22,714 bases of DNA from a virus. Where the stretch lies: IMG/VR virus record IMGVR_UViG_3300000405_000063, positions 1-22,714 of that record, one strand, 5' to 3'. Position 1 is the first letter of the stretch. Each line of letters begins with the position of its first letter. Made by a program: the position numbers and the translations under genes. The notes below the pieces were generated by a model. It was given only the letters and a program-made list of their open reading frames with translations, did no database searches and was not told the DNA's origin. Positions 624 through 22,714 of this stretch are shown here, piece after piece.

Positions 624-1535
624 ATGATAAAGAATGCACTGGATCTTACAGGCGCTCCTCAGGGACTCGATAAGGACCATATTCTTATGTATATGTTCCT
701 TACAAGATTCGAAGGAAGCACTAGACAGTCTTATAGCATATATATAAAAAGTTTTTACGAGTGGTCTTGCGCTTATGGAATTTCTATAACAGAAGCAAAA
801 AGAGTGCATCTTCAGTTTTTTGTAGAACAATTAAGAAAAGAGAAAAGCTCTTATACTGTCCACAAGACGGTAGGCGTTTTAAGAAGTTTTTACTCTTTAC
901 TTGAGGCTGACGATATAGTTATAAAAAATCCAGTAGCTCATCTTTCTCTTCCAAAGTTAGATAAAGAAAATATAAAGAGACCTCATCTAAACAGGACTCA
1001 ATTTTGCGATCTACTAGAGTATGCAAAATCAAGAAGCGTTAGAGATGAGCTTATAGTTTTACTTCTTGGAATAATGGGACTCAGGGTAACAGAAATGTGC
1101 AATCTTAATGTTTCAGATACGGAATGCTACATTGATGGATATAGATTGCTTGAGTTTACAGGAAAAGGCGAAAAAAAGGCGAGCCTGCCTATACCGGTGA
1201 TGGTAGGAAGGGTGCTGGAAAAGCATCTTGAAGAAAGTCTAGAAGATGGACCTTTGATACTGAACAAGTTTGGCAATCGCTTTAACAGGTCTGGAGTAAG
1301 TCAATTAGTAAAAAGAATGACACTTGAGGCTGGAGTTCCCTCAGTCACCTCTCACGCCTTAAGAAGATCTATGGTAACAAACTCTCTTAACGCAGGCGCA
1401 GATATTAGAGAAGTTCAAAAAGCCGCAAGGCATTCTGATATAAGAACAACATCAAGAATTTACGATCAGGGAACCACTTCCCATGACAGCAGTTCACTCA
1501 ACGTTCTCGCAGGGTTCATATCAGGAGCGATATGA
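624..1535 (+). CDS. Tyrosine recombinase/integrase (XerC/D size)
   Basis: A 303-residue site-specific recombinase. I chose the ATG at 624 because GAGGAG (608-613) precedes it by 10 bases; the frame is open further upstream but overlaps the previous gene. The N-terminal half (about 20-110) looks like the SAM-like core-binding domain. The C-terminal half has the full catalytic set: R154 in GLRVTEM, K181 in FTGKGEK, H244 and R247 in SHALR, H270 in ARHSD, and the nucleophile Y280 in RIYDQ. There is no extra arm-binding domain like lambda Int. Family role: strand exchange through a 3'-phosphotyrosine, for integration/excision or multimer resolution. It is AT-rich (20 of 60 bases G or C at 721-780) with many AGA and ATA codons. 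Its position directly before head genes is unusual. It overlaps the next gene by ATGA. Whether it integrates the phage or resolves dimers cannot be read here. Confidence 0.9.
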   Translation: MIKNALDLTGAPQGLDKDHILMYMFLTRFEGSTRQSYSIYIKSFYEWSCAYGISITEAKRVHLQFFVEQLRKEKSSYTVHKTVGVLRSFYSLLEADDIVIKNPVAHLSLPKLDKENIKRPHLNRTQFCDLLEYAKSRSVRDELIVLLLGIMGLRVTEMCNLNVSDTECYIDGYRLLEFTGKGEKKASLPIPVMVGRVLEKHLEESLEDGPLILNKFGNRFNRSGVSQLVKRMTLEAGVPSVTSHALRRSMVTNSLNAGADIREVQKAARHSDIRTTSRIYDQGTTSHDSSSLNVLAGFISGAI

Positions 1536-4981: not shown

Positions 4982-5347
4982 ATGGGTAAGCCCAGCTACA
5001 GCAAGCCACCGACCCAGGCCTTTGCCGAGATGGTGGAGGCCGAGGATTACGTTCCTAGCACCGTTGTCGGTCAGGCTGACGATAAGGAACTTAGCGAGGA
5101 CGGTTACGTTAACGTCAGCGCTGAGTACCGCAATTACGCCAACGCGACCGACAAGCCGCGTAACGGCGACGAGGGCGCTGAGTCGGACATTGAGGATCGC
5201 CAGCTCGCTGACGACGTTGATCCCGACAAGGGAGCCACCCCTGAAGTGCCCGAAGATGCAGAAGAGGACGAGGAGAACGACGAGGACGAGGAGAACGACG
5301 AGGACGAGGAATCGGACTCTAACCCGTTCTCCACTCCGCTGCCCTGA
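4982..5347 (+). CDS. Small acidic protein between capsid and connector
   Basis: 121 residues, with AAGGAG shortly before ATG 4982. The first 60 residues are mixed ('MGKPSYSKPPTQAFAEMVEAEDY'); the rest is dominated by Asp and Glu with a six-residue repeat (EDEEND) coded by three 18-base units at 5264-5317. I do not recognise a family. Its place just after the capsid gene is that of lambda FI, an acidic packaging helper that promotes terminase-prohead docking; a similar role or a DNA-mimic role is possible, but this rests only on position and charge. Confidence 0.75.
   Translation: MGKPSYSKPPTQAFAEMVEAEDYVPSTVVGQADDKELSEDGYVNVSAEYRNYANATDKPRNGDEGAESDIEDRQLADDVDPDKGATPEVPEDAEEDEENDEDEENDEDEESDSNPFSTPLP
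5264..5317 (+). repeat. 18-base coding repeat, three units (EDEEND)
   Basis: Units at 5264-5281, 5282-5299 and 5300-5317; the first two are identical (GAGGACGAGGAGAACGAC), the third ends with altered bases (EDEESD). They encode the acidic tail of the small protein. Confidence 0.85.
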
Positions 5348-7649: not shown

Positions 7650-8669
7650 ATGGGCTACAGCTCACAGAGTGGTCAGGTCTTGATGAGGACTCAGGATTCG
7701 GCGGGAATTTTCCCGGTTGACTTCGGAACCACCTCGATCGCAATGAAGATCAAAAGCGGATCACTTGGACCCAACCGAGACCTGCTTGTTCCTGACATGG
7801 AGATCGGTGGAGGCCGAGACGTTTCCGAAGCCTACCTCGGCGCAGCGTCCTGGTCCGGAGACTTCGAGTTCTATGCACGACTCGAAAGCATTTCAACCCT
7901 AATCCAGGCTTGCCTCGGAGTTCCGGCTGTTACGGCCCCAGAGGGCACAGCGGGAGCCTGGACCCACGACTTCTCTCCTAGCGACAATGCTACTCTTCCG
8001 TACATTGCAGTCGAAGAGCGTATTGGTTCTGGTCTAGAGGTTTACCAGTACACTGATGCTGTTGTCAACTCCTTTCACATGGAGGCAGAGGCAAACGGCT
8101 TCCTAATGGGAACCGCAGGCCTCATCGCAAAGAAGCAGATTGCTGGCGCAGCCGCTACTGCAACGCCTGATTTTGACGAGTCTCCTCTTCTCGTCGGAAC
8201 CAACACTCAGGTTACGCTGGGTGGAATCTCCCTCCCAGCGAAGTCTTTCGGATTTGACATCAACAACAACTTCGAAGATGACGACTTTCGACTGGGCTCT
8301 TTCTATCTAGGTGACCTTACCGCAAAGGGCCGCGAGGTTATGGGTAACGTTGCTATCCGCCCAGAGGATAGCGCACTTTGGCGTCGGGCTGTTTACGGAC
8401 AGTCCGGCCTCACCGAGGTTGGCGGATTGACCACCAAGTCTCCCTTGGTTGTTACCTCGACAACCTACGAGGATATCGACGGCTCGACTCCTATCGTCAA
8501 GAGTAGCATTAAGGTCACTTTCCCAAAGATCGTCCTGGAGCCTTTCGCTCTCGAGCCTTCTGGTGACGACATCATCGAGAACGATATCAGCTGGCGTGCG
8601 ATTCGTAACCAGGTCGGAACCCCGATCTGCACCGTTTTAATCACCAGTGGCATGGAGACTGTCGCCTGA
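7650..8669 (+). CDS. Major tail tube protein
   Basis: 339 residues; AAGGAG starts 15 bases before ATG 7650. It opens 'MGYSSQSGQVLMRTQDSAGI' and has the beta-sandwich pattern and 'GGGRDVSEAYLGAASWSGDFEFYARLESISTLIQACLG' segment common to siphovirus tail tube proteins of this type, where a ring subunit has two similar halves: here about 1-165 and 166-339 ('SLPAKSFGFDINNNFEDDDFRLGSFYLGDLTAKGREVMGNVAI'). It polymerises on the tape measure into the tube. Codons are GC-ending, as for other abundant virion proteins, and a strong hairpin follows directly. Confidence 0.88.
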   Translation: MGYSSQSGQVLMRTQDSAGIFPVDFGTTSIAMKIKSGSLGPNRDLLVPDMEIGGGRDVSEAYLGAASWSGDFEFYARLESISTLIQACLGVPAVTAPEGTAGAWTHDFSPSDNATLPYIAVEERIGSGLEVYQYTDAVVNSFHMEAEANGFLMGTAGLIAKKQIAGAAATATPDFDESPLLVGTNTQVTLGGISLPAKSFGFDINNNFEDDDFRLGSFYLGDLTAKGREVMGNVAIRPEDSALWRRAVYGQSGLTEVGGLTTKSPLVVTSTTYEDIDGSTPIVKSSIKVTFPKIVLEPFALEPSGDDIIENDISWRAIRNQVGTPICTVLITSGMETVA

Positions 8670-8796: not shown

Positions 8797-9348
8797 ATGA
8801 CGCTTGGCACCGAAACAGCCCCCGAAGCTACCGAGATGGTCGAAGACCTGACTAGCCAGTTTGAAAACTACTGGGGAACCGAAGAAGAGTTTGTGTTCAC
8901 TTTGCCTGACGGCAAGCAGAACTTCACGATCAAGCCCCTGGACGAGGGCGGTAAGACTCTCTTCCAGAAGATGACAAACAAGGGCATCCGAGTGAACCAG
9001 AAGACTCAGGACGCTCACCTCGACATTGACCCCGCGTCCGAGCGTCACACGCTCATCAAGAACAGCGTTATCGACTATACGCTGATGGTTCCAACCTTCC
9101 ACGCCGGAACCCAAAAGATCAAAAGCTGGGACAAGCACCCCTTTTCCAAGAAGAGCCTGGAGCAGTGGCTCGAAAAGGCTAACCCCAAGACCGTCCAGGA
9201 GCTGGAGCTCTTTATTCGCACGAAGAATCCATGGATGCAGGACAACATGAGCACGAAGGAGATCGACACGGAGATTGACCGTCTCCTTGAGCTCAAGAAG
9301 CAGGCCTCGGAGCGTGAAGTGGGGGAAGCCGATTCCGCGAACAAGTAG
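8797..9348 (+). CDS. Tail assembly chaperone, short form (lambda gpG-like)
   Basis: 183 residues, ATG 8797 with a GAGAGGG site just upstream. Sits between tail tube and tape measure, the fixed place of the G/GT chaperones. Contains 'LPDGKQNFTIKPLDEGGKTLFQKMTNK' and a helical C-terminal half ('KTVQELELFIRTKNPWMQDN', 'EIDTEIDRLLELKKQASERE'). It binds the tape measure and helps recruit tube subunits; it is not in the finished virion. A GGGGGAA slip site near its end leads to a longer form in the -1 frame. The stop TAG at 9346-9348 lies within the stimulatory hairpin. Confidence 0.85.
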   Translation: MTLGTETAPEATEMVEDLTSQFENYWGTEEEFVFTLPDGKQNFTIKPLDEGGKTLFQKMTNKGIRVNQKTQDAHLDIDPASERHTLIKNSVIDYTLMVPTFHAGTQKIKSWDKHPFSKKSLEQWLEKANPKTVQELELFIRTKNPWMQDNMSTKEIDTEIDRLLELKKQASEREVGEADSANK

Positions 9349-9366
9349 AGATATTTGTTCGCGGGA
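9321..9366 (+). promoter_or_regulatory. -1 programmed frameshift signal: slippery site plus hairpin
   Basis: Slippery GGGGGAA (9321-9327), read in the zero frame as GTG GGG GAA, is followed after 5-7 bases by a stem: CCGCGAACAA (9335-9344) pairs perfectly with TTGTTCGCGG (9355-9364), and flanking pairs (including two wobbles) lengthen it to 9333-9346 with 9353-9366 around a six-base loop AGAGAT. Spacing and strength are what ribosomal -1 shift sites need. Confidence 0.8.
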
Positions 9367-9602
9367 ACGAGGTCCCTCCTCCTGTCCATCCTGTACTAAG
9401 GCTCTACAGTCTTTGTTCTGGAATGGAGTGGAACCATCTTCCTGAGCCAGGTGGTCTGTATCAGCAGAAACCTGAGTTCTTAGACAAGGCTTATTACATA
9501 ATGGCCGAGAAGTCTAAATGGGAAGAGCAGGACAGGAAAAAGAAAGACAGAGAGTCAAAGAGCCCTCGCGGTGGAATTAAGAATCCTAGCAGGGGCAGGT
9601 AG
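9327..9602 (+). CDS. Tail assembly chaperone, -1 frameshift extension (gpT-like)
   Basis: No start codon of its own: the frame opens at 9318 after a TGA and is reached by a -1 shift at GGGGGAA (9321-9327), giving a fusion of about 177 + 91 residues ending at TAG 9600-9602. The extension has the hallmarks of second chaperones: 'VRGNEVPPPVHPVLRLYSLC', then 'GMEWNHLPEPGGLYQQKPEF', 'AYYIMAEKSKWEEQDRKKKD' and a Gly/Arg-rich tail. In lambda GT the T part binds the tube protein while G binds the tape measure. The shift efficiency sets the ratio of the two forms. Confidence 0.85.
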   Translation, partial: SRFREQVEIFVRGNEVPPPVHPVLRLYSLCSGMEWNHLPEPGGLYQQKPEFLDKAYYIMAEKSKWEEQDRKKKDRESKSPRGGIKNPSRGR

Positions 9603-9658: not shown

Positions 9659-12600
9659 GTGACTATAGGGCACGTCCCAGCGATTGAGGCCCAACGAGAC
9701 CGAGTGTTAGGTCAGGCCGCTATCAACGCCTATATGAATATAAATGTCAGAGTTTTGAGCGCTGCAGCTCAAACTCAGATAAAGGCTCTTCAAGCACAGG
9801 TAGCAATGCTGCAGAAGCAGCTTGTAGCAGGTGGCGCAGCCGCTACCGGACCTAAGTCAATTGGCGGTCCAGCTTCCCTGATGGCTCTCCGTAACTACGG
9901 ATCGAAGCTTCAGTGGACTGGTAGGCAGATTAGATATAACTTTACTCTGCCAATCCTATTGGCAGGCGCTGCTGCGACAAAGTTTGCTTTTGATAACGAG
10001 AAGGCGTTCACTCGCGTCAAGAAGCTTTACGGCGACGATGCTGACGCTTTGAAGTACATGAAAAAGAATCAAGACGCGTGGGGAAAGCGTGTAACTGCAA
10101 GCGGAGCAGTTACTAGGGTTTTCAAACGAGAGCTTGAATCACTTGAGAAAGTCTTTGGAGCACTTAGTTCTAGGTACGGCGAAAATCAGAAAGAAATAAT
10201 TGAAACAGCAGGAGCCTGGGCTGCAGCTGGCTCTTCTGGAGTCGCTCTAGCCAAGAGTACCGAGCTTAGCATAAAGGCTTCAATACTTGGAGACATGGAG
10301 CTTGAGAAAGCAACAGAGTCTCTTATTGCAATTCAATCTCAATATTCCCTCAGTACTGAGGGACTAACTACTACACTTAACGAGCTTAACGCAGTAGAGA
10401 ACCAGACCGGCATCGGGATGGAAGGCCTTATTAAAGGCTTCTCTCGAGCAGCTGGTTCTGCAAGAGAGTACGGAATTGACGTTCGTCACCTTGCGGCTAT
10501 GCTTGCGGCACTTGTTCCTGCAACAGGAACAGCGACTACGGCTGGTAACGCACTCAAGACAATTATGTCTCGAATCCTTTCTCCCACAAAGGAAGCTGCC
10601 GCAGTTATGGCAGAGTTCGGTGTCGTTACGAGCGACGCCACCTGGCAGTCAAGCAACGGTATGGAGCGTCTCCAGATCATTGCTGCAAAGATGGACAACG
10701 ATCTTAAAAAGACTGGCAAGGGAACAAAAGATCTTGCTGATGATATGTTCCAGTTGTCTGACAGCCAGAGGGCTGTTGTTGCAACAACACTCGGCTCTAG
10801 GTATCAGGTCAACCGCTTCCTCGTTCTAATGCGCGAGTTGAGCAGCGAAGAAGGATATTTTCAGAAGGCACTTAATGCAACACAGAACGACATAAAGGTA
10901 ACTGCGCAAGCAACCAAAGAGCTTAACACAGTTCTTGAGTCCAGCCCGAAGAGGCTTGAGATACTCGGGAACACAATAAAGAACACAATGGCTACAGCCA
11001 TTGCGCCACTTATTCCTTACATGATATATCTTGCCATGAAGGTTTCTGACCTCATGAAGGCGTTTGGAAACCTTTCGCCGGGAATGCAGAAGTTTATACT
11101 TCTTGCAGCAGGAGCCATGGCTTCAATAGGAATCTTTGTTCCACTTCTTGGATCTCTTGTAACTCTCGTTACACTTTTGATAGCTCCTGTCGCCATCGTA
11201 GCGAACGCGTTCTTTGCGATGGGAAGAGCTACTGCGGCAGCGGCGGCAGTTACGAAAGCTGCTGCCGTTTCATTCTTTGCCTCAAGTAAGATAATTGCTC
11301 TTGCTAGGAATATTGCTGTAGGAGCATGGGTTTCTGGTATGGCGGCAATGAAAGCTCTTGCTATAACCGGCTGGGCTGCAATTAGCGCGACGAACATTGC
11401 GGGATGGGCAGCCACAAACCTAGGTACTGTCCTCGGGTGGGTTGTAGGGCTTGGCTTGGAAGCGGCAGGTTGGGCAAAGAAGCAAGGTCTTGTAATCGCT
11501 GCATGGGCAAAGTATAACGCTATCAATATTGCCGGATGGACTGCTGATCTTGCAATAGCGAGAGCAGCTCAGGCAAAGAGTCTTGCTACCATTACTGCCG
11601 GGTGGCTTGCAACTCAGGCACTTAATGCAATTGCTTGGGTAAAGTACAACGCTGTAACGCTCGGCGGATGGACCGTTAATATAGCAGCCGCTCGTGTTGC
11701 AAACTCTACAAAGCTTCTTATAGAGAAGACTTCTGCAGCAGCAAGACTTGTCGTATTAATTGCTGCCTGGGGTGCCATTAGTGCAATAAATTCAGCCGGA
11801 TGGATAAAGCAGAATTTCATAACAGCAGCAGGAAGCGCTAAGAACCTCGCGTACTGGGGCTCTGCATGGCTAGCAATAAATGCAATAACGATTGCAGGAT
11901 GGGTCAAGCAGACTCTAATAAATGCTGCCGGTTGGATAAAAAATCAATCAGTACATTCTGCCGCATGGGTCTTGGTTCAAGCTATAACAGCTGCAGGATG
12001 GATAAAGACACATGTTATTAACATTCTCGGTTGGATTGCTTACAACGCAGCAACGTTCGCTGGCTGGGCTGCCAGTCATGCGATAACGTTTGCAGGCTGG
12101 ATTAAGACTCGGGCAATATCGGCAGCGGGCTGGGTTGCTTACAACTCTTCCATCGCGGCCGCTTGGGTAGTAAAAAACGGCATACATGCTGCAGGCTGGG
12201 CCTTGACTGCCGGAATTCATGCAGCAGGTTGGATTGCAGTAAATATTCTCAGCGGCAAGGGACTGCTTACTCTTCTGAGAACAGTTGGAACAGGCATGGC
12301 AGCAGTAGCAGCTGCAATGTCCTGGCCTGTAACACTTGCAATTGCCGCTGTTGTGTTGGCATTCCTTTTATTCAGAAATAAGGCTCAGCAGATATGGAAC
12401 AATATAGTTTCATATTTTTCTGATAGCAATAGCGCCATGGTCAAGACTGTGATTAGTGGGTGGAACCTTCTTCCCCAGGGTGTCGCTAACGCATTGACTG
12501 CAGTTGTTAGAATAGTTTCAAACGCAGCTAAGCAGATATATGAATGGTTCTCTTACATAAACCCATTCGCTCGACACTCTCCATCTCTGGTAGAGAACGT

Positions 12601-15600
12601 TACGAATGGCATGGGGGTAGTTAGCAGGCAGTTTGGAAAAGCCTCTTCTGCTATTAGTGGTCACGTAAGGGGTGCTTACCGAGACATTAAATCGTTCGGA
12701 AAAGCCATCCGAGGACTTCTCAAGGGTGCCGCAACTTTCGAGCACGCTCAAGAGCGTTCGAAGATAAAGAAGTTTGCTCCGGGCGCACTTAAAGAGTTTG
12801 ATAAGCTTTCGAAGAGGCTTCGGATTCTCGGAAGAGGTCTAGATAGGCTCAAGAGTAAGATGAGCAGCCAGCAGGCTGTTGTAGACAAGTGGACAGACGC
12901 TCTTGATCGCGCAAACAAAAAGCTGTCAAAGCAAGAGAAGGTTCTTGAAAGACTCCAGAAGCGCCAACAGCGTTGGCAGGAAGATCTTTCTGCAGCTCAA
13001 GACAGCTTGAACTATTTTGCATCTGCACCCATCGAGGGTATGGGAGCTATGGGCGATGCCATCTTTGAAAACGAAATGGCTCAAAAGAGTCTTCGTTACG
13101 AGATGATGAAGCTCGAAGATGTTGTAGGAACACTTGACGAGATTAAGAGTAAGATAGAAGCCGTAAACGGAGCGCAAGAACTTCTGAGCGGACAAAAAGC
13201 AGGCCTCAGGTCTGGTGGCGCTGGTAGTGAGATTCTTTCGCAGTACGACGACCAGATATCGGCACTTGAGAAGACAAAGAATCAACAGAATGAAGCTGCT
13301 GACGCACTGCAGAATATGAGTGAAAAGATTTCAGATCTGCAGCGAAAGGGGGAAATGCTAGATCTGGAAGAAAGCCTCAAATTCGATCCTTTGACTCGAC
13401 AGATAGACAAGCTCGCAAACGCTATGGAAGAACTTCCATTCGATGTTATTATCGCTGGAGTAACTAAAGCAGCGGCAGACATAGAGATCTATGAGAAAAA
13501 GCTCAGGCAGGCGACGAGGGCTGTAGAGAAGCAGGGGAAGGTAGTTGACAGGCTTACTGACGCGAGAGACAGGATGCAGGATTCCCTGAACCTTGAGTCT
13601 GAAAAACTTGAAGAAATAAGAAGCAAGTACGAACTTGTTGCCGAGGCGATAGGTTCCGTGGAGCAGGCAATGAGTCAAGCTTCGCAGGCAGCTGGTTCTA
13701 TGGCTGACAAGATAGCCAAGGCCAAGGAAGCAAAAGCTAAGGCTAAGGCTGCAAAAAAGGCAAAGATTCCTAAGAAGGAAATACTTTCTCCTGCTGTTCA
13801 GAACTTCCGTGATGCAGCTGGTGGCAACTTTGCTAAAGTTTCCGGCAATGGCATTCCTTTCCGAACAGACTGGAGTTCCCAAGAAGACGGCCTGAATGAT
13901 ATGTTCCAGGATCTAACGGAATTGCAGGCCAAGCAGTTTGCCAAGTTTAACCCATTCGATCCTATTATTAAGAAGTGGGAACAGTTCAAGGGATGGTGGG
14001 GCGGAGCCTGGGGCAGGCTTGTTGACTCAACTAAGGATATGTTCTCAGAGATATTCTCCGGTGTAGGTGGCGGAGACGTAGACGGCAAGCTTGATAAGAT
14101 AAAAGAAAAGTTTAGAGCCTTTACGGACGAGATAAGAATAGTATGGGAGAAGACGAAAGAGTTCTTTACAAGTGTTGGCAAGGCCTTTAAAGCCTTCTGG
14201 AGGCTAATAGAGCCTATCCTGACGGAAATAAAAGAGACTGTACAGGAAGCTCTTGGCAAGGCCTGGGAGAAGATAGGACCTGAGGTTGAGGCTATATTCA
14301 AAGAGCTTGGTCCCCTCTTTACAAACTTCCTAGCAGCCGTCAAGCCAGTCCTTGCAGTCCTTGGTCTCCAGTTTGCTATCCTCTCATCGGTGATTCTAAA
14401 CGTTTTCAATAGGATTATAAAGCCTGCCATAGAGATGTTCGGCTCTGTTATAGCAAACGTATTTCAGGTTGTGCGAGGGATACTGCAGGTCTTTAGTGGT
14501 TTCTTCATGCTGTTCACTGGAGACTTCAAGGGTGCTTTCGAGAAGATGGGCTCAGGGATACTTAATATATTCTCTGGCATCTTCGGCACAATAGGAGCTT
14601 TGTTTAAGGGAGCATTCAAGATGCTGCTGGGCCTCGTCATGGGAGTGGTCGAGGGAATCTTTGGATTCTTTAAGTGGCTATGGAATGAACTTGTTGGTAA
14701 CTCTATCGTTCCAGACATTATTGATGGAGTATGGTTCTGGTTTGAAAAGCTTGGAGCCCTGGGTAAATGGGTTTGGGACAAGGTTCTAAAGCCAGTATTT
14801 GATTTCTTTGTTGATGCGTTCAGACTTGTTATCGGAGCTGTAAAACTTTGGTTCCAAGGAATTAAACTCGCTTGGAGTGTACTCGCTACGCTCGGTACAT
14901 GGTTCTGGGAGAACGTCCTCAAGCCTGTTGGGGAAGTTTTCGTATGGCTTTGGGACAAGGTAGTTAAGCCCAATCTGGAGTTCTGGTGGGATGCCATAAA
15001 GCTCGCATGGGGCGCACTCGCCAAGCTCGGGACCTGGTTCTGGGATAATGTTCTCAAGCCTGTCTATGACAAGGTTAAAGAGGTGTGGGACAAGTACATT
15101 CAGCCTGCACTCGCCTTCTGGTGGGAAGGAATGAAGATAGAGTGGAAGGCGCTCAAGGCTGCAGCGACCTGGTTCTGGGATAATGTTCTCAAGCCTGTCT
15201 ACGACAAGGTTAAAGAGGTTTGGGATAAATACGTTAAGCCAGCACTCGATCTCTGGTGGAGCGGAATTAAGACTGCTTGGGACAAGCTCAAAGGCTTGGC
15301 AGGTTGGGTCTGGGATAATGTTCTCAAGCCTGTCTTCAATCAGTACGAAAAGCTTTGGGATAAGGTTAAGCCAGCTCTCAATCTCTGGTGGAGCGGTATT
15401 AAGAAAGAGTGGGACATACTCAAAGGCTTGGCAGGCTGGGTCTGGACTTACGTCCTAAGGCCTGTCTTCAATCAGTACGAAAAGCTTTGGGATAAGGTTA
15501 AGCCAGCTCTCAATCTCTGGTGGAGCGGGATTAAGAAAGAGTGGGACATACTCAAAGGCTTGGCAGATTGGGTCTGGGATAATGTTCTCAAGCCTGTCTT

Positions 15601-17092
15601 CAATCAGTACGAAAAGGTTTGGGATAAATATGTTAAGCCAGAACTAGAGCTCTGGTGGAGCAGGATAAAGACTGCTTGGAATAAGCTCAAGGATCTCGGC
15701 GGTTGGATAAAAGATATCGTTATGGACCCAGTTTTCAATGCGTTCAAGAACGGCTGGGAGCGCATCAAGGAGTGGCTTGTCGACTCCAAAGACATGCTCG
15801 CATCTCCCGCTAAGGCTATAGTTTCAACTGTTGTTAAAGCTGTTAACCTTCTGATAATGGGACTGAATGCCATTCCTAAATCCCTTCCTGGATTCAACTG
15901 GAGCATTAAGCCAATCCAGCTCGCCTCGGGCGGAAAGATCCCTGATCACCTAATGGCCGAAGGTGGAAAAATACCGGGACGCAGGGCCAATGCAGGATTC
16001 AAGACAACCGGTGCTCGTGCTATCGTTGGTGAAGGAAAGGCCAACTATCCCGAGTTTGTTATTCCAACAGACCCGACTTATCGAAACAGGGCCAAGGGCC
16101 TTCTCGACATAGCTGCATCCAAGATAGGCCACAACACCCTTGCCTCATCTAATCTGAAGAACGTTTCTGGAAATGGAGCCATTCCTCAGTTCGGCATAGG
16201 TGGATGGCTTGGAGATAAGTACGAGGACGCAAAGGGTCTTGCTAAAGACATATCAAACATTCCACGCAAGATCTTTAGCAAGACAATGGACCCGCTCCTC
16301 AATGCCGGTGCTGCTACCGTTAACAAAGTGAAGTGGGAGCCAGTCAAGCCTCCACCGTTGTCAATGATAAAGGAAATGAAAGAGTGGGTCAAGGGCTCAG
16401 AGCAAGCTCTAGGCAAGTCTATTGACAAGTACACTGTCCCAACAGGCGGAAATGTAAGCCTTGACCCTGTTGCTAATGGAAACGGAACTTCCTCATGGAA
16501 GGGTGGAACGTTCACCAACCAGTTCATCTCGGCCATGCAGAAAGCGGAGCAACTTGCTGGATCGAGCATGTCTGTTATGCAGGGTGGATTCCGACCGACG
16601 ACAAGTTATTCTGGGACTTCCCACCAAGCGGACGCTGTTGACATCCGCCCGAACAATGCTTTAATCGGGGCAATGCGTAGGGTTGGAATTGCTGCAGGAG
16701 ACCGTACCGGCCTAGGTTCCTGGGCACCACACACACACGCGGTACCGGGTCCTGGGGCGGGTAGGGCTGGAGGATCGGCTATCTGGCAATTCCAGGATTA
16801 CATGGCACGCGGTGGGATGAATCAATCCTATAGTTCTCCGTGGGGACTAGAGGAGGGTGGTATAGTTTCTAGAACGCAAGGTGGAGTCAAGGCGCTGCTT
16901 GGAGAGGGTCGCAACGATGAAGCCGTTGTCCCCCTTCCTAGAAACTGGAAGAGCGCTGGGTCTGGCCCGTTCGGAGAATCGAGCGGTGGGGACGAGATAA
17001 ACTTCTACGGAGATCTTTCCTTCCCGAACATTACTAACCCAGATGATGCACACGACTTCATCGAGAACCTCAAAGCGCTAGCGAAGGACTGA
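9659..17092 (+). CDS. Tape measure protein, 2477 residues
   Basis: Sets tail length and is ejected with the DNA. The start is uncertain: GTG 9659, GTG 9704 or ATG 9734 ('MNINVRVLSAAAQTQIKALQ'), none with a good ribosome site. Order: N-terminal coil (to ~90); core tape measure domain (~110-350, 'AFDNEKAFTRVKKLYG', 'IETAGAWAAAGSSGVALAKS', 'ATTAGNALKTIMSRILSP'); hydrophobic stretch (~440-550); 11-residue Trp repeat (572-868); second hydrophobic segment (~860-905); 'NPFARHSPSLVENV' (~970); coiled coils (~1020-1380); more hydrophobic helices (~1510-1680); seven 44/45-residue repeats (1701-2012); 'GEGKANYPEFVIPTDPTYR' (~2125); a degenerate M15-like peptidase domain (~2275-2385, H2322, D2328, H2358/H2360); and C-terminal 'LGEGRNDEAVVPLP'. 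At 0.15 nm per helical residue the full chain would span up to about 370 nm, so a long tail is inferred. Confidence 0.95.
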   Translation: MTIGHVPAIEAQRDRVLGQAAINAYMNINVRVLSAAAQTQIKALQAQVAMLQKQLVAGGAAATGPKSIGGPASLMALRNYGSKLQWTGRQIRYNFTLPILLAGAAATKFAFDNEKAFTRVKKLYGDDADALKYMKKNQDAWGKRVTASGAVTRVFKRELESLEKVFGALSSRYGENQKEIIETAGAWAAAGSSGVALAKSTELSIKASILGDMELEKATESLIAIQSQYSLSTEGLTTTLNELNAVENQTGIGMEGLIKGFSRAAGSAREYGIDVRHLAAMLAALVPATGTATTAGNALKTIMSRILSPTKEAAAVMAEFGVVTSDATWQSSNGMERLQIIAAKMDNDLKKTGKGTKDLADDMFQLSDSQRAVVATTLGSRYQVNRFLVLMRELSSEEGYFQKALNATQNDIKVTAQATKELNTVLESSPKRLEILGNTIKNTMATAIAPLIPYMIYLAMKVSDLMKAFGNLSPGMQKFILLAAGAMASIGIFVPLLGSLVTLVTLLIAPVAIVANAFFAMGRATAAAAAVTKAAAVSFFASSKIIALARNIAVGAWVSGMAAMKALAITGWAAISATNIAGWAATNLGTVLGWVVGLGLEAAGWAKKQGLVIAAWAKYNAINIAGWTADLAIARAAQAKSLATITAGWLATQALNAIAWVKYNAVTLGGWTVNIAAARVANSTKLLIEKTSAAARLVVLIAAWGAISAINSAGWIKQNFITAAGSAKNLAYWGSAWLAINAITIAGWVKQTLINAAGWIKNQSVHSAAWVLVQAITAAGWIKTHVINILGWIAYNAATFAGWAASHAITFAGWIKTRAISAAGWVAYNSSIAAAWVVKNGIHAAGWALTAGIHAAGWIAVNILSGKGLLTLLRTVGTGMAAVAAAMSWPVTLAIAAVVLAFLLFRNKAQQIWNNIVSYFSDSNSAMVKTVISGWNLLPQGVANALTAVVRIVSNAAKQIYEWFSYINPFARHSPSLVENVTNGMGVVSRQFGKASSAISGHVRGAYRDIKSFGKAIRGLLKGAATFEHAQERSKIKKFAPGALKEFDKLSKRLRILGRGLDRLKSKMSSQQAVVDKWTDALDRANKKLSKQEKVLERLQKRQQRWQEDLSAAQDSLNYFASAPIEGMGAMGDAIFENEMAQKSLRYEMMKLEDVVGTLDEIKSKIEAVNGAQELLSGQKAGLRSGGAGSEILSQYDDQISALEKTKNQQNEAADALQNMSEKISDLQRKGEMLDLEESLKFDPLTRQIDKLANAMEELPFDVIIAGVTKAAADIEIYEKKLRQATRAVEKQGKVVDRLTDARDRMQDSLNLESEKLEEIRSKYELVAEAIGSVEQAMSQASQAAGSMADKIAKAKEAKAKAKAAKKAKIPKKEILSPAVQNFRDAAGGNFAKVSGNGIPFRTDWSSQEDGLNDMFQDLTELQAKQFAKFNPFDPIIKKWEQFKGWWGGAWGRLVDSTKDMFSEIFSGVGGGDVDGKLDKIKEKFRAFTDEIRIVWEKTKEFFTSVGKAFKAFWRLIEPILTEIKETVQEALGKAWEKIGPEVEAIFKELGPLFTNFLAAVKPVLAVLGLQFAILSSVILNVFNRIIKPAIEMFGSVIANVFQVVRGILQVFSGFFMLFTGDFKGAFEKMGSGILNIFSGIFGTIGALFKGAFKMLLGLVMGVVEGIFGFFKWLWNELVGNSIVPDIIDGVWFWFEKLGALGKWVWDKVLKPVFDFFVDAFRLVIGAVKLWFQGIKLAWSVLATLGTWFWENVLKPVGEVFVWLWDKVVKPNLEFWWDAIKLAWGALAKLGTWFWDNVLKPVYDKVKEVWDKYIQPALAFWWEGMKIEWKALKAAATWFWDNVLKPVYDKVKEVWDKYVKPALDLWWSGIKTAWDKLKGLAGWVWDNVLKPVFNQYEKLWDKVKPALNLWWSGIKKEWDILKGLAGWVWTYVLRPVFNQYEKLWDKVKPALNLWWSGIKKEWDILKGLADWVWDNVLKPVFNQYEKVWDKYVKPELELWWSRIKTAWNKLKDLGGWIKDIVMDPVFNAFKNGWERIKEWLVDSKDMLASPAKAIVSTVVKAVNLLIMGLNAIPKSLPGFNWSIKPIQLASGGKIPDHLMAEGGKIPGRRANAGFKTTGARAIVGEGKANYPEFVIPTDPTYRNRAKGLLDIAASKIGHNTLASSNLKNVSGNGAIPQFGIGGWLGDKYEDAKGLAKDISNIPRKIFSKTMDPLLNAGAATVNKVKWEPVKPPPLSMIKEMKEWVKGSEQALGKSIDKYTVPTGGNVSLDPVANGNGTSSWKGGTFTNQFISAMQKAEQLAGSSMSVMQGGFRPTTSYSGTSHQADAVDIRPNNALIGAMRRVGIAAGDRTGLGSWAPHTHAVPGPGAGRAGGSAIWQFQDYMARGGMNQSYSSPWGLEEGGIVSRTQGGVKALLGEGRNDEAVVPLPRNWKSAGSGPFGESSGGDEINFYGDLSFPNITNPDDAHDFIENLKALAKD
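11372..12262 (+). repeat. 11-residue tryptophan repeat in the tape measure
   Basis: From W572 to W858 the tryptophans fall on one 11-residue register: 23 of 27 register positions are Trp (missing at 638, 682, 693, 726). Typical units are AGWIKTHVINI, LGWIAYNAATF and AGWAASHAITF. DNA copies differ widely, so the period is kept at protein level. Confidence 0.9.
14759..15694 (+). repeat. Seven 44/45-residue repeats in the tape measure
   Basis: Units start at 14759, 14891, 15026, 15161, 15296, 15428 and 15560 with lengths of 44, 45, 45, 45, 44, 44 and 45 codons; a degenerate eighth begins at 15695. Consensus parts are 'W.WDNVLKPV', 'WDKYVKPAL.LWWSGIK..W'. Units at 15296 and 15428 are nearly identical DNA, showing recent duplication; they lack one residue (the Y of DKYVKP). 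Confidence 0.9.
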
Positions 17093-17094
17093 AC

Positions 17095-20000
17095 ATGGTA
17101 ACTAAGATCGCAGGTTCAAACGAACAAGGATTGGATCACAAGAAAGCTTCTGTGATTCTTCTTGACGGAAGCGTTGCGGTATCTGTTGCCGAACCTGACA
17201 ATATTGTCGTTTATCACAGTTTTGACAGAGTAGTCTGGACAAGGAAGGTCGAGGTCCAGATCACCGGCGTTCCGAATCGAGACTTCTCTACCGCAATGGA
17301 CGTTTATCCAGATGGTTCTATAGGGCTGTTTGTTCTGATGGACGAATATATTCGTTATGCAGAGATAATTACATCAGGACCGACTTGGACTGAAACTAAC
17401 AGTTCTTTTAACGTTGAAAGAGCAAATGGAGAAAAAATTTGGAGCAATTCTTTCGACGCTACTATATCTGAAACTGGAGCTGTTCATGTTGCTTTTATCG
17501 TAAGTAATATTAACAACGATTATTCTCACATTACAGAATCTTCCTACTCTTCGACAGTTTCAAGAAGAGGAGCTTGGCTCAGAGTCGCCAATAGGTCTGT
17601 CGCTGGAGTCTGGTCATTATCTTCTACTGATATACAATTAACTATTCCTTACTCAAGCTCTGGGTCAACTACAGAAGGTGCTATTACTTATGCACAAATG
17701 TTATCTATTGGACTGTCCCACCAGGGCGGACTTGGATCTTCTCAGAATTCCGCTAGGCCAATAGTAGTTGCGTTAGGTACTGGTAGAAATTATGGAGAAA
17801 ATGGAATAAAGGTTTACACAGCAAAAATAAGTGATAACTCTGCCGATCTTCAAGAATTCACCTACCGAAAGATAATAGGTGAATTAGACTTTACTACCGC
17901 TACTAGCCCTTACAGATATGTAAAGAGGTTCGGCAAGATTGTATGGGAGGGGGCTGATGAGTTTACTGTTGTTGTAGGAAGACAGTTGCCTACAGTGAAA
18001 GTCTGGGCAGCTCCAATATCATGGGACGGGACTACTTATTCAGAAAGAGTTTCCACTCAATCTTTTGACCACGACATCCAGCCTTACTCTGCGACCGGAC
18101 ACTACCAATGCTCCGTAGGCTTTGGGTACTCTTCTCTTGGAATATTTCACTTTATATGGCAAGAAAAATACTTGAATGATGCTAGAATGGAAACCTTCGA
18201 TTGCTTTAATATATCTTTTTCAAGTTCTTCCTTCATGTGGTCTCAGGTTAACAGATGGACAACAGAAGTTTTGAGAAGTGATAGCAGATACTTTGAGGTA
18301 TTCTCTCCGCTAGGGAGAACATCTCTTCTTTCTGACAATTACGATGTTTTTATTCCGTACAGAGGCGCCTACGCGACTATACATCCTGAAGGACTTTACT
18401 ATCAGGGAAAGGTTCCCCTCCCAGCTCCGGTAAATGCATCACCCTCCGCTGGAGGCTCTGTGCTGACTTCTGAACCTGCAATATACGCTGACCTTGATTT
18501 TGATACAAAATATTCACAAGTTAGTTCTAAGATAAGATTCAGGTTCGCTAAGGACATATCGTTTTCAACCGGAGTTAGAGATTACACCCAGGCCGACTCT
18601 CAACTCAAGTCTGTAAATGGAACTGACGTACCAGGATTCTTTGTAAGATTTAACGAAATCCTTCCTTTCTCTAAAGCTTTAACGCAGAATGACTGGTACG
18701 GAAGAGTCTCCGTGATTGACTCTCTTGGAAAGGAAAGTCCTTACTACGAGTTTGGGCCTTTCACTGTAACTCACCCCCCTACATCAACTGGCGTTACTCC
18801 AGGAGCTAATCAGACTTTTGTGTTCACCGGAGGCCCTGTCGGATTCGATTGGTCATTTTCTGACACATGGCCTAATGACTCCCAGTCCGCGTATCAGGTA
18901 ACTTGTTCTGTTGACTCTACATCTGAGCTTGTCTTTGACTCAGGAAAGGTATCTAGCAACAATACGATTCATTACTTTAGTATTCCCGCTTCAAGGAAAG
19001 ACGTAACTCTAAGGTGGAGAGTTCAGGTATGGGACCTAGACGATCGGACAGGAAGCTTTTCTTCTTACTTGTACTTTAGGCTAAGTGACGCACCACTGGT
19101 CAGTATTCAATACCCGACCGACGGCACTGCTGTAAACTCTAGTTCTCCGTACCTAGAGTTTACGCCAACTCTTGCTGCAGGAAAGTTTCTGACTTCCTAC
19201 AGGGTTGTTATAACCGAAGATGGATCTCCTTTCTACAACTCTGGCGCAGTTAGCACTTCTCCAGTTTACACTGGAGAAAAAGTCTCTTGGACAACAAATA
19301 CGAAGTCTCTAACTATTAACAGAAACTACTCTTCTGTAGTTTCTGTGACTGACGATCTTTCCCTAGAAGGCACTTCAGATCCTACATACTACAACACGAC
19401 GTGGGCGGAGCCTGCAGTTGGGGTCCTGACTGTTTCTACTGTAAACTACAATGTTGAAGGAAAGGGTTACATCAGTGTTCTCTGGGATGACAGTTCTAGA
19501 GATCCAAACTTTCTTTATTACATTCTAGAAAAATCAACTGACAGTGGTGAATGGATTGTTGTCAACTCTATCTATGAAAGAATATCGTTTTACGAGCACA
19601 GGGATTACGACCTAGCATCAGGAGCGGTCGGAACTTACAGGCTTACTCAGTATGTTGACACTCTCGGAGAAACTGTAAAATCTCAACCGAGTCCTAGCGT
19701 TTCGGGTTCAGCAGTAACTGACGGCTACTGGATACTAACTCCATTCGCTACTGAAGGAAGTCAACTTACTGCTTTTAAGCTTTCAATAGTAACCTCTGAT
19801 GCTTACACGGAAGAGTACGAAAAGGCGGAGTTTAACCTTATCGGAAGAGGAAGGCATGTGGATGAGGGGGATCGCTTTGGTTACCGAGGATCTCTTACTG
19901 CTCAGCTGAGAGACTCTGAATACGCAACCGCTAGAGAAAAGAAAGTTAAGATTGAAGAGAAGAAGGCCCTAGGAGGATTGACGTATATGCGAAATCCTTT

Positions 20001-20112
20001 TGGAGATGTCTTTGAAGTGTATATTGACGACATTCAGGTAAGCAGAATAGCAGGTGTTGGCGTTTCAGAATTCGTTGACGTTACGATTCCTTACATTGAG
20101 GTAGGAAGATGA
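17095..20112 (+). CDS. Minor tail protein: propeller-like N-terminus, Fn3/Ig-like domains, Dit-like C-terminus
   Basis: 1005 residues, starting two bases after the tape measure stop, with AAGGA at about 17083-17087. Residues 1-430 are beta-rich with repeated 'DGS.A..V', 'SFDRVVWTRKV', 'YPDGSIGLFVLMDEYIRYAE', 'GAVHVAFIV', 'LGIFHFIWQEKYL' units, like a sialidase-type propeller. Residues ~440-850 hold three or four Fn3/Ig-like domains ('PPTSTGVTPGANQTFVFTG', 'RWRVQVWDLDDRTG', 'YYILEKSTDSGEWIVVNSIY'). The last ~140 residues ('NLIGRGRHVDEGDRFGYRGS', 'GLTYMRNPFGDVFEVYIDDI') look like the beta-domain of tail-tip proteins in actinophages. Position after the tape measure is that of the distal tail protein. 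Likely tail-tip component with carbohydrate-binding parts. Codons become AT-rich (AGA, ATA common). It ends with an ATGA overlap. Confidence 0.8.
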   Translation: MVTKIAGSNEQGLDHKKASVILLDGSVAVSVAEPDNIVVYHSFDRVVWTRKVEVQITGVPNRDFSTAMDVYPDGSIGLFVLMDEYIRYAEIITSGPTWTETNSSFNVERANGEKIWSNSFDATISETGAVHVAFIVSNINNDYSHITESSYSSTVSRRGAWLRVANRSVAGVWSLSSTDIQLTIPYSSSGSTTEGAITYAQMLSIGLSHQGGLGSSQNSARPIVVALGTGRNYGENGIKVYTAKISDNSADLQEFTYRKIIGELDFTTATSPYRYVKRFGKIVWEGADEFTVVVGRQLPTVKVWAAPISWDGTTYSERVSTQSFDHDIQPYSATGHYQCSVGFGYSSLGIFHFIWQEKYLNDARMETFDCFNISFSSSSFMWSQVNRWTTEVLRSDSRYFEVFSPLGRTSLLSDNYDVFIPYRGAYATIHPEGLYYQGKVPLPAPVNASPSAGGSVLTSEPAIYADLDFDTKYSQVSSKIRFRFAKDISFSTGVRDYTQADSQLKSVNGTDVPGFFVRFNEILPFSKALTQNDWYGRVSVIDSLGKESPYYEFGPFTVTHPPTSTGVTPGANQTFVFTGGPVGFDWSFSDTWPNDSQSAYQVTCSVDSTSELVFDSGKVSSNNTIHYFSIPASRKDVTLRWRVQVWDLDDRTGSFSSYLYFRLSDAPLVSIQYPTDGTAVNSSSPYLEFTPTLAAGKFLTSYRVVITEDGSPFYNSGAVSTSPVYTGEKVSWTTNTKSLTINRNYSSVVSVTDDLSLEGTSDPTYYNTTWAEPAVGVLTVSTVNYNVEGKGYISVLWDDSSRDPNFLYYILEKSTDSGEWIVVNSIYERISFYEHRDYDLASGAVGTYRLTQYVDTLGETVKSQPSPSVSGSAVTDGYWILTPFATEGSQLTAFKLSIVTSDAYTEEYEKAEFNLIGRGRHVDEGDRFGYRGSLTAQLRDSEYATAREKKVKIEEKKALGGLTYMRNPFGDVFEVYIDDIQVSRIAGVGVSEFVDVTIPYIEVGR

Positions 20113-21825: not shown

Positions 21826-22714
21826 ATGAAATTTGGTGATGTAAGCACCGCAGGGCAAATGAGAGATGTTATTTCTGGTATAGCAAAGTCAGCAGTCATG
21901 GGATTCGGCATAGTTCCAAGGACTGGAGAAGTAGTAAGTGTTGATTCTGTTCAACATTCTGCAGGCGTTAAACTCGTAGGTGAAACTTCCACAATAAACG
22001 TCTCCTATGGAAAGTTTGCAAATCCTCTAATAGGAGAAATTGTAAGAGTAGAGGGAAAGACAGGCTCCTATTACATAGCAAACTTTGTTACATATGCTGA
22101 ACTTACTGTTGACAGCACTTCAGGTGCAGTTTTGCAGGTCAACGGCAAGCCTGGACCTTACGTAGACCTGGTAGCTTCTGATGTTGGGGCGAGGGCTGCT
22201 GGAAACGTCCCATGGACGGAAGTTTCAAGCAAGCCTACAACGTTCCCGCCTTCTGTCCACGATCACAACACCCTCTATCCTCCACTGGCTCGACAGATCA
22301 TCTCGGGCACAGGAATGACAGGGGGGGGCGACTTTACTGCGAACCGAACACTTGCGGTGACCTACGGAACGACTGCAGGAACAGCGGCACAGGGAAACGA
22401 CTCTCGGATTACGACGGCTGTCCCGAACACTCGACAGATTAACTCGGGCACAGGAATGACAGGGGGAGGCGACCTTACTGCGAACCGAACACTTGCGGTG
22501 ACCTACGGAACAACTGCAGGAACAGCAGCACAGGGAAACGACTCTCGACTCTATGACGCTCGAACCCCTACAACTCACGGTCATAGCGAGTACGCTCTTG
22601 GTTCAAGACTGATCACTTCGGGCACAGGAATGACAGGGGGAGGCGACCTTACTGCGAACCGAACACTTGCGGTGACCTACGGAACAACTGCAGGAACAGC
22701 AGCACAGGGTAACG
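21826..22714 (+). CDS. Tail fibre/spike protein, 3' end cut by window
   Basis: At least 296 residues, open to the right edge. ATG 21826 has AGAGGA at 21817-21822. Residues 1-100 include an OB-fold-like barrel ('GEVVSVDSVQHSAGVKLVGE', 'NPLIGEIVRVEGKTGSYYIA'), as in baseplate hub and spike proteins. Then comes a linker 'VPWTEVSSKPTTFPPSVHDH' typical of tail fibre necks, and from about 155 three copies of a shaft repeat 'SGTGMTGGGDLTANRTLAV' plus 'TYGTTAGTAAQGNDSR', a motif widespread in trimeric phage fibres. It likely binds the host surface with a C-terminal domain outside the window. Confidence 0.8.
   Translation, partial: MKFGDVSTAGQMRDVISGIAKSAVMGFGIVPRTGEVVSVDSVQHSAGVKLVGETSTINVSYGKFANPLIGEIVRVEGKTGSYYIANFVTYAELTVDSTSGAVLQVNGKPGPYVDLVASDVGARAAGNVPWTEVSSKPTTFPPSVHDHNTLYPPLARQIISGTGMTGGGDFTANRTLAVTYGTTAGTAAQGNDSRITTAVPNTRQINSGTGMTGGGDLTANRTLAVTYGTTAGTAAQGNDSRLYDARTPTTHGHSEYALGSRLITSGTGMTGGGDLTANRTLAVTYGTTAGTAAQGN
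22303..22714 (+). repeat. Tail fibre shaft repeats, about 103 bases, three copies
   Basis: Near-identical copies start at 22303, 22444 and 22618 (the last cut by the edge), spaced 141 and 174 bases, in frame. The first has a run of eight G where the others read GGGGGA. High DNA identity shows recent duplication or gene conversion. Confidence 0.9.

Follow-up and report, generated by a model that had tools for sequence, protein, structure and literature searches.

A strictly phased tryptophan hendecad block in a viral tape measure protein, of known kind and with a variant orientation of the Trp stripe

Why would a viral tail length tape measure protein (TMP) keep its tryptophans at one exact 11-residue spacing over hundreds of residues, and is such a repeat new? 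The question is raised by the window analyzed here, an IMG/VR virus record of 22714 b, in which a sequence-only reading had pointed out a phased Trp block within the TMP. The block, its gene and the neighboring tail genes are located as follows:

7650-8669: tail tube protein (PF18906)
8797-9348, + strand: tail assembly chaperone (gpG-like), 183 aa (phrog_3096, 1.6e-43)
9321-9602, + strand: gpGT-like extension of the chaperone through a probable -1 frameshift at the slippery heptamer GGGGGAA, 9321 (open -1 frame)
9659-17092, + strand: TMP gene, 2477 aa, GTG start (ORF; Pfam PF10145; phrog_5448)
10169-10789, + strand: PhageMin_Tail domain (aa 171-377), which precedes the Trp block (Pfam)
11111-11203, + strand: strongly hydrophobic segment (aa 485-515), after the PhageMin_Tail domain and before the Trp block (Kyte-Doolittle)
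11372-12262, + strand: Trp hendecad block, aa 572-868, 27 units of 11 residues, Trp at position 0 in 23 of them (grid count)
12548-12610, + strand: conserved motif FSYINPFARHSPSLVENVTNG, aa 964-984, which follows the hendecad block in the clade (motif positions in relatives)
14675-15706, + strand: another Trp-rich stretch of the TMP (aa 1673-2016), built of tandem units of 44/45 residues and without a strict hendecad
17095-20112: minor tail protein

The TMP matches the Pfam family PF10145 (PhageMin_Tail; aa 171-377, 1.8e-20), the tape measure family phrog_5448 (aa 24-1882, 1069 bits) and many other TMP families in PHROG. Its place in the gene order is typical: tube protein and frameshifted chaperone precede it, and the tail tip proteins follow. 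The -1 frame is open from the heptamer GGGGGAA (9321) to a stop at 9600-9602, a two-piece chaperone layout is likewise annotated in related phages, and heptamer and open frame probably represent a programmed frameshift of the tail assembly chaperone. The limits of the hydrophobic segment (aa 485-515) are the centers of 19-aa windows with a Kyte-Doolittle mean above 1.6 (maximum, 2.53). Elsewhere in the window, a tyrosine integrase (PF00589, 5e-24; 414-1535, + strand) lies just upstream of the head maturation protease, within the structural gene block, at a position where the related phages inspected have the portal and small genes. A 141-bp tandem repeat with 94% matches (22289-22547, + strand) is found in a tail fibre-like ORF that the window end truncates, and an 18-bp repeat of the GAGGACGAG type (5264-5310, + strand) at the 3' end of a small ORF (4982-5347) that had no PHROG or Pfam match; the latter repeat would encode an acidic tail, if the frame of this ORF is used.

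From W572 to W858 (~287 residues), 23 of the 24 Trp residues fall on one 11-residue grid (572, 583, 594, 605, 616, 627, 649, 660, 671, 704, 715, 737, 748, 759, 770, 781, 792, 803, 814, 825, 836, 847, and 858), W733 being the sole one out of phase. The grid comprises 27 positions and 26 intervals, and the positions without Trp carry Q (638), N (682), A (693), and S (726). This recount of all Trp residues agrees with the earlier claim of an exact grid with one exception and four empty positions, and the codon positions agree with the extent of 11372-12262 proposed for it. In 5000 composition-preserving shuffles, the best single-phase count was 8, versus the 23 of 24 observed. The longest unbroken run holds 12 Trp (737-858), and the consensus of the block reads W-(A/V/I)-(A/K)-x-N-A-I-(T/N)-A-A-G.

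As to novelty, the sequence-only reading, which knew of no described family with so strict a Trp hendecad, has to be corrected, since such repeats were published in 2011 and are widespread in viral TMPs, with runs of up to 36 Trp among the matches listed in our census. Belcaid et al. (2011, PMC3271669) describe 11-residue Trp/Phe "markings" in ~5% of annotated TMPs, with seven [FW] residues at x(10) in 191 of 5608 annotated TMPs, and name among their examples phages and prophages of Staphylococcus, Clostridium, and Bacillus. These TMPs resemble the query in having Trp as the marker, an 11-residue period and a tape measure protein as the carrier, and the 12-Trp run at 737-858 fits their Pattern 1, which asks for seven consecutive [FW]-x(10). 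The query differs from them in its intervening residues, which are rich in Ala, Gly, and Ile and almost free of acidic residues, with a hydrophobic face opposite the Trp.

When we scanned IMG/VR for runs of eight Trp codons, each 33 nt from the next, at least 120 stretches were returned; after removal of ORFs of 150 aa or less and of duplicates, 95 ORFs remained among the matches listed. Five of these 95 belong to a different type, WxxIxDxQTPG, and the other 90 are those with Trp runs of up to 36. When ORFs were tested against TMP families, seven of nine matched, and one of the remaining two was of the QTPG type. Strict Trp hendecads are common in viral TMPs, and in the ordinary ones Trp lies at the edge of a hydrophobic face, together with positions 3, 7, and 10 after it; this 3/7/10 pattern is one that is common in the present census of Trp blocks and has no published definition. 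The WxxIxDxQTPG proteins are a separate family with strict W-x10-W runs (L016, L050, L071, L077, L114, L243, and others), mostly near the C-terminal end of viral ORFs, and the one member tested (L016) had no PHROG match.

A related-locus search with the TMP protein alone gave no match, nor did tblastn with the Trp region alone (1e-5, low-complexity filter on), and relatives were therefore reached through an alignment of the N-terminal domain (A1), the profile of which led to 46 environmental and named loci; a profile search of genome contigs with A1 gave no relatives. The nearest named TMPs are from Gordonia and Tsukamurella phages (~29-35% identity over half the protein), and more distant ones are from Rhodococcus and Streptomyces phages. 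Across 30 non-redundant loci, 36.2% of the Trp pairs within 88 residues are spaced at multiples of 11 (shuffles, 8.9%; maximum, 11.8%). The commonest lags are 22, 44, 66, 11, and 33, with lag 22 seen 100 times, versus at most 29 for any lag in shuffles. In TMPs of the clade, the block sits between the PhageMin_Tail domain and the FSYINPF motif (aa 964-984 in the query, with invariant columns in alignment A2), often with Trp at 11 or 22 residues. As an example, Gordonia phages GTE7, Woes, and SteveFrench and Tsukamurella phage TIN2, whose N-terminal domain is ~40% identical to that of the query, have a Trp grid of period 11 in the same place (GTE7, 12 on the grid with a run of 11), and the block is followed by FSYINPF..SPSLVENVTNGM in these phages and the query, the motif being conserved after the grid of the four as FSYINPF..HSPSLVENVTNGM. 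Their grids are, however, shorter and less filled (7-12 Trp on the grid), and their consensus, ~W-A-A-A-S-L-A-L-Q-A-A, is unlike that of the query. In six environmental TMPs of the same clade and with the block in the same place (L145, L146, L149, L150, L153, and L157), most Trp fall at a multiple of 11 and occupy every second hendecad (22 residues), alternating with Trp-free hendecads, so that the query can be seen as the fully filled version. The homologue comparison proposed earlier, with the absence of a fixed spacing as the refuting outcome, thus brought no refutation: the homologue set keeps the 11/22-residue register, although some clade members (Demosthenes, Jumbo, L137, L172, and L179) have no Trp at this spacing.

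The block is therefore real, strong and of a known kind; the way its Trp stripe is oriented makes it a variant. To measure orientation, each block was treated as an ideal helix (11/3 residues per turn) with its Trp set to 0 degrees, and the hydrophobic moment was calculated from the ten remaining positions; the angles below give the direction of this moment. The mean for 83 strict Trp blocks among the IMG/VR matches listed is -73 degrees (Eisenberg; resultant length, 0.89); ten clade relatives range from -47 to -97 degrees, with GTE7, TIN2, Woes, and SteveFrench, unlike the query, at -74 to -97. For the query, the moment points to +153 degrees (Eisenberg; bootstrap, 134-170), or to +146 with Kyte-Doolittle, +102 with octanol and +118 when only ILVMF are counted, and only 1 to 4 of the 83 strict blocks listed come within 60 degrees of it. 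This moment is modest because Ala makes up 26% of the block, a content reached by only 2 of the 83 listed; acidic residues amount to 1.0% versus 8.1%, a level equally low in 14 of the 83. The usual hydrophobic positions 3, 7, and 10 are lacking as a pattern. Positions 3, 4, and 7 are instead mostly polar and positions 1, 5, 6, 8, and 9 hydrophobic, which places Trp on the same side as N/T/K, opposite an Ala/Ile/Gly face. As predicted from the residue order, then, the unusual feature of the query is the face that carries the stripe, opposite the hydrophobic side in comparison with its relatives. Searches for this chemistry (Gly-Trp or Ala-Gly-Trp at 11-residue spacing) returned the WxxIxDxQTPG family, ORFs of low complexity and some tail-like ones of the ordinary kind; in this limited search, no second block with an A-A-G-W-I-K consensus was seen among the listed matches with at least four Trp in a row.

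We consider it likely that the Trp block serves a siphophage TMP as an alpha-helical ruler segment built on hendecads, with the stripe as a repeated contact surface. The register with its statistics, the homology, the place within the gene and, for a helix taken as ideal, the amphipathic geometry are what the data show; the packing of the helices, the partner and the function are what we infer. The helical ruler with a single stripe suggested earlier fits the exact 11-residue register, the spectral peak of Ala/Gly in the block at 3.65 residues (11/3) and an AlphaFold2 model of aa 396-988. The latter, built from 31 sequences, is helical nearly throughout at low confidence (mean pLDDT, 59; pTM, 0.22), and so it supports the helix only, with Trp side chains and arrangement not placeable. 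For a hendecad coiled coil, whose hydrophobic stripe would have a period of 11/3, the spectrum is mixed, as Ile/Leu/Val/Met/Phe/Trp peak at 5.5 and 2.75. Eleven residues would make three helical turns and set the Trp in one straight stripe, one per 16.5 Å, which probably offers a docking surface at regular intervals and so holds the TMP extended and in register while the tail is assembled. Candidate partners are the frameshifted chaperone encoded just upstream, neighboring TMP helices in a bundle and the inner tube wall. The 11-residue phase may be kept because adding or losing anything short of a full turn would rotate the stripe off its partner. Contact of aromatic TMP repeats with chaperone or tube is the mechanism proposed in PMC5099701 and in PMC3271669, the latter of which cites Siponen et al. 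2009 for aromatic residues as chaperone anchors.

Among the closest known systems is the TMP of lactococcal phage TP901-1, which was dissected by mutation (Mahony et al. 2016, PMC5099701). Like the query, it has 11-residue aromatic repeats, although it mixes repeats of 11 or 18 residues (29 in all) and Trp with Phe, whereas the query is purely of period 11 and Trp only. Plaques were obtained when a deletion extended 3, 7, or 10 residues inside the fourth repeat, and heads only when it extended 1, 2, 5, 6, or 8 residues (PMC5099701). Helical phase thus matters for tail assembly in TP901-1, and by analogy it may do so in the query. Other results from the same study count against the ruler reading. 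Putting 11 alanines in place of one 11-residue repeat had what the authors call "little impact" (efficiency of plaquing, 0.06), so that the phage can do without a single aromatic anchor, and when repeats 1-4 were deleted as a whole, particles were intact but formed no plaques (PMC5099701), so that phase does not explain everything. The clade TMPs without the Trp spacing, named above, count against it as well.

Could the periodicity be a mere relic of tandem duplication of a 33-bp unit, its spacing under no selection? Histories of 33-bp unit duplication in TMPs are indeed described by Belcaid et al. (PMC3271669), and the same gene offers a clear recent DNA repeat: aa 1673-2016 holds a 132/135-bp repeat with 80-86% matches (Tandem Repeats Finder rows at 14981-15661), whose 44/45-residue units tolerate a one-residue indel (KYVKP/KVKP) and, judged from their DNA, are a recent expansion. 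The Trp block contrasts with this. Tandem Repeats Finder reported no DNA repeat in it, the mean DNA identity among its 27 units is 43.5%, with adjacent units no closer than distant pairs, and synonymous choice is free (Ala codons GCT 20, GCA 35, GCG 8, and GCC 13). The earlier observation of a fixed register over varying DNA and intervening sequence is borne out by these counts, and the register is therefore kept at the protein level. A recent DNA duplication was rejected as its cause on the same grounds. As 23 of 24 Trp stay in phase despite freely varying codons, and the register recurs in highly diverged TMPs, the relic reading too is already disfavored and, in our estimate, very improbable.

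Some phage TMPs are thought to act at membranes, T5 pb2 among them, and the Ala/Gly/Ile-rich, Trp-lined helices might likewise leave the tail, insert in the host membrane and help form a DNA channel in which Trp would lie at the lipid interface or face the pore. The Trp region is hydrophobic overall (GRAVY, 0.70), with a net charge of +17, three acidic residues and no proline in 310 residues. Yet a Kyte-Doolittle mean above 1.6 is reached within the block at only four 19-aa window positions (701-702 and 706-707), the clearly hydrophobic segments are found on either side of it (485-515 and 888-900), and Trp recurs every 11 residues across 287 residues, far longer than a bilayer span. The TP901-1 authors, moreover, judged hydrophobic TMP parts likelier to recruit chaperones than to insert in membranes (PMC5099701). 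We regard a membrane-active segment as unlikely. A stripe packed inward as the core of a multi-helix TMP bundle, without a partner outside the TMP, would suit the ordinary hendecads, in which Trp joins positions 3, 7, and 10 at the edge of the hydrophobic face. In the query, by contrast, the moment of the other ten positions lies ~150 degrees from Trp, so that a Trp core would expose the Ala/Ile face, and this arrangement seems quite improbable to us.

For the preferred reading, a ruler segment with a repeated contact surface, Trp on the polar side and an Ala/Ile/Gly face away from it suggest helices that would be tightly packed through these small residues, with Trp pointing outward. Whether the query stands for a distinct, inverted class of Trp hendecads, in which the stripe would lie opposite the hydrophobic face and point outward to tube wall, chaperone or DNA, unlike an ordinary contribution to a bundle core, is a tentative and rather doubtful proposal.

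The question on which the block bears is what reads the aromatic marks of the tape, be it chaperone, tube rings or partner helices. Its near-perfect phase, combined with an amphipathic order reversed relative to its relatives, separates Trp as a core residue from Trp as a surface mark and makes it a clean test segment for these two roles. At the level of the family, the census shows that Trp spaced at 11 residues or at twice that distance is a common register of viral TMPs, those of an actinobacterial phage clade among them.
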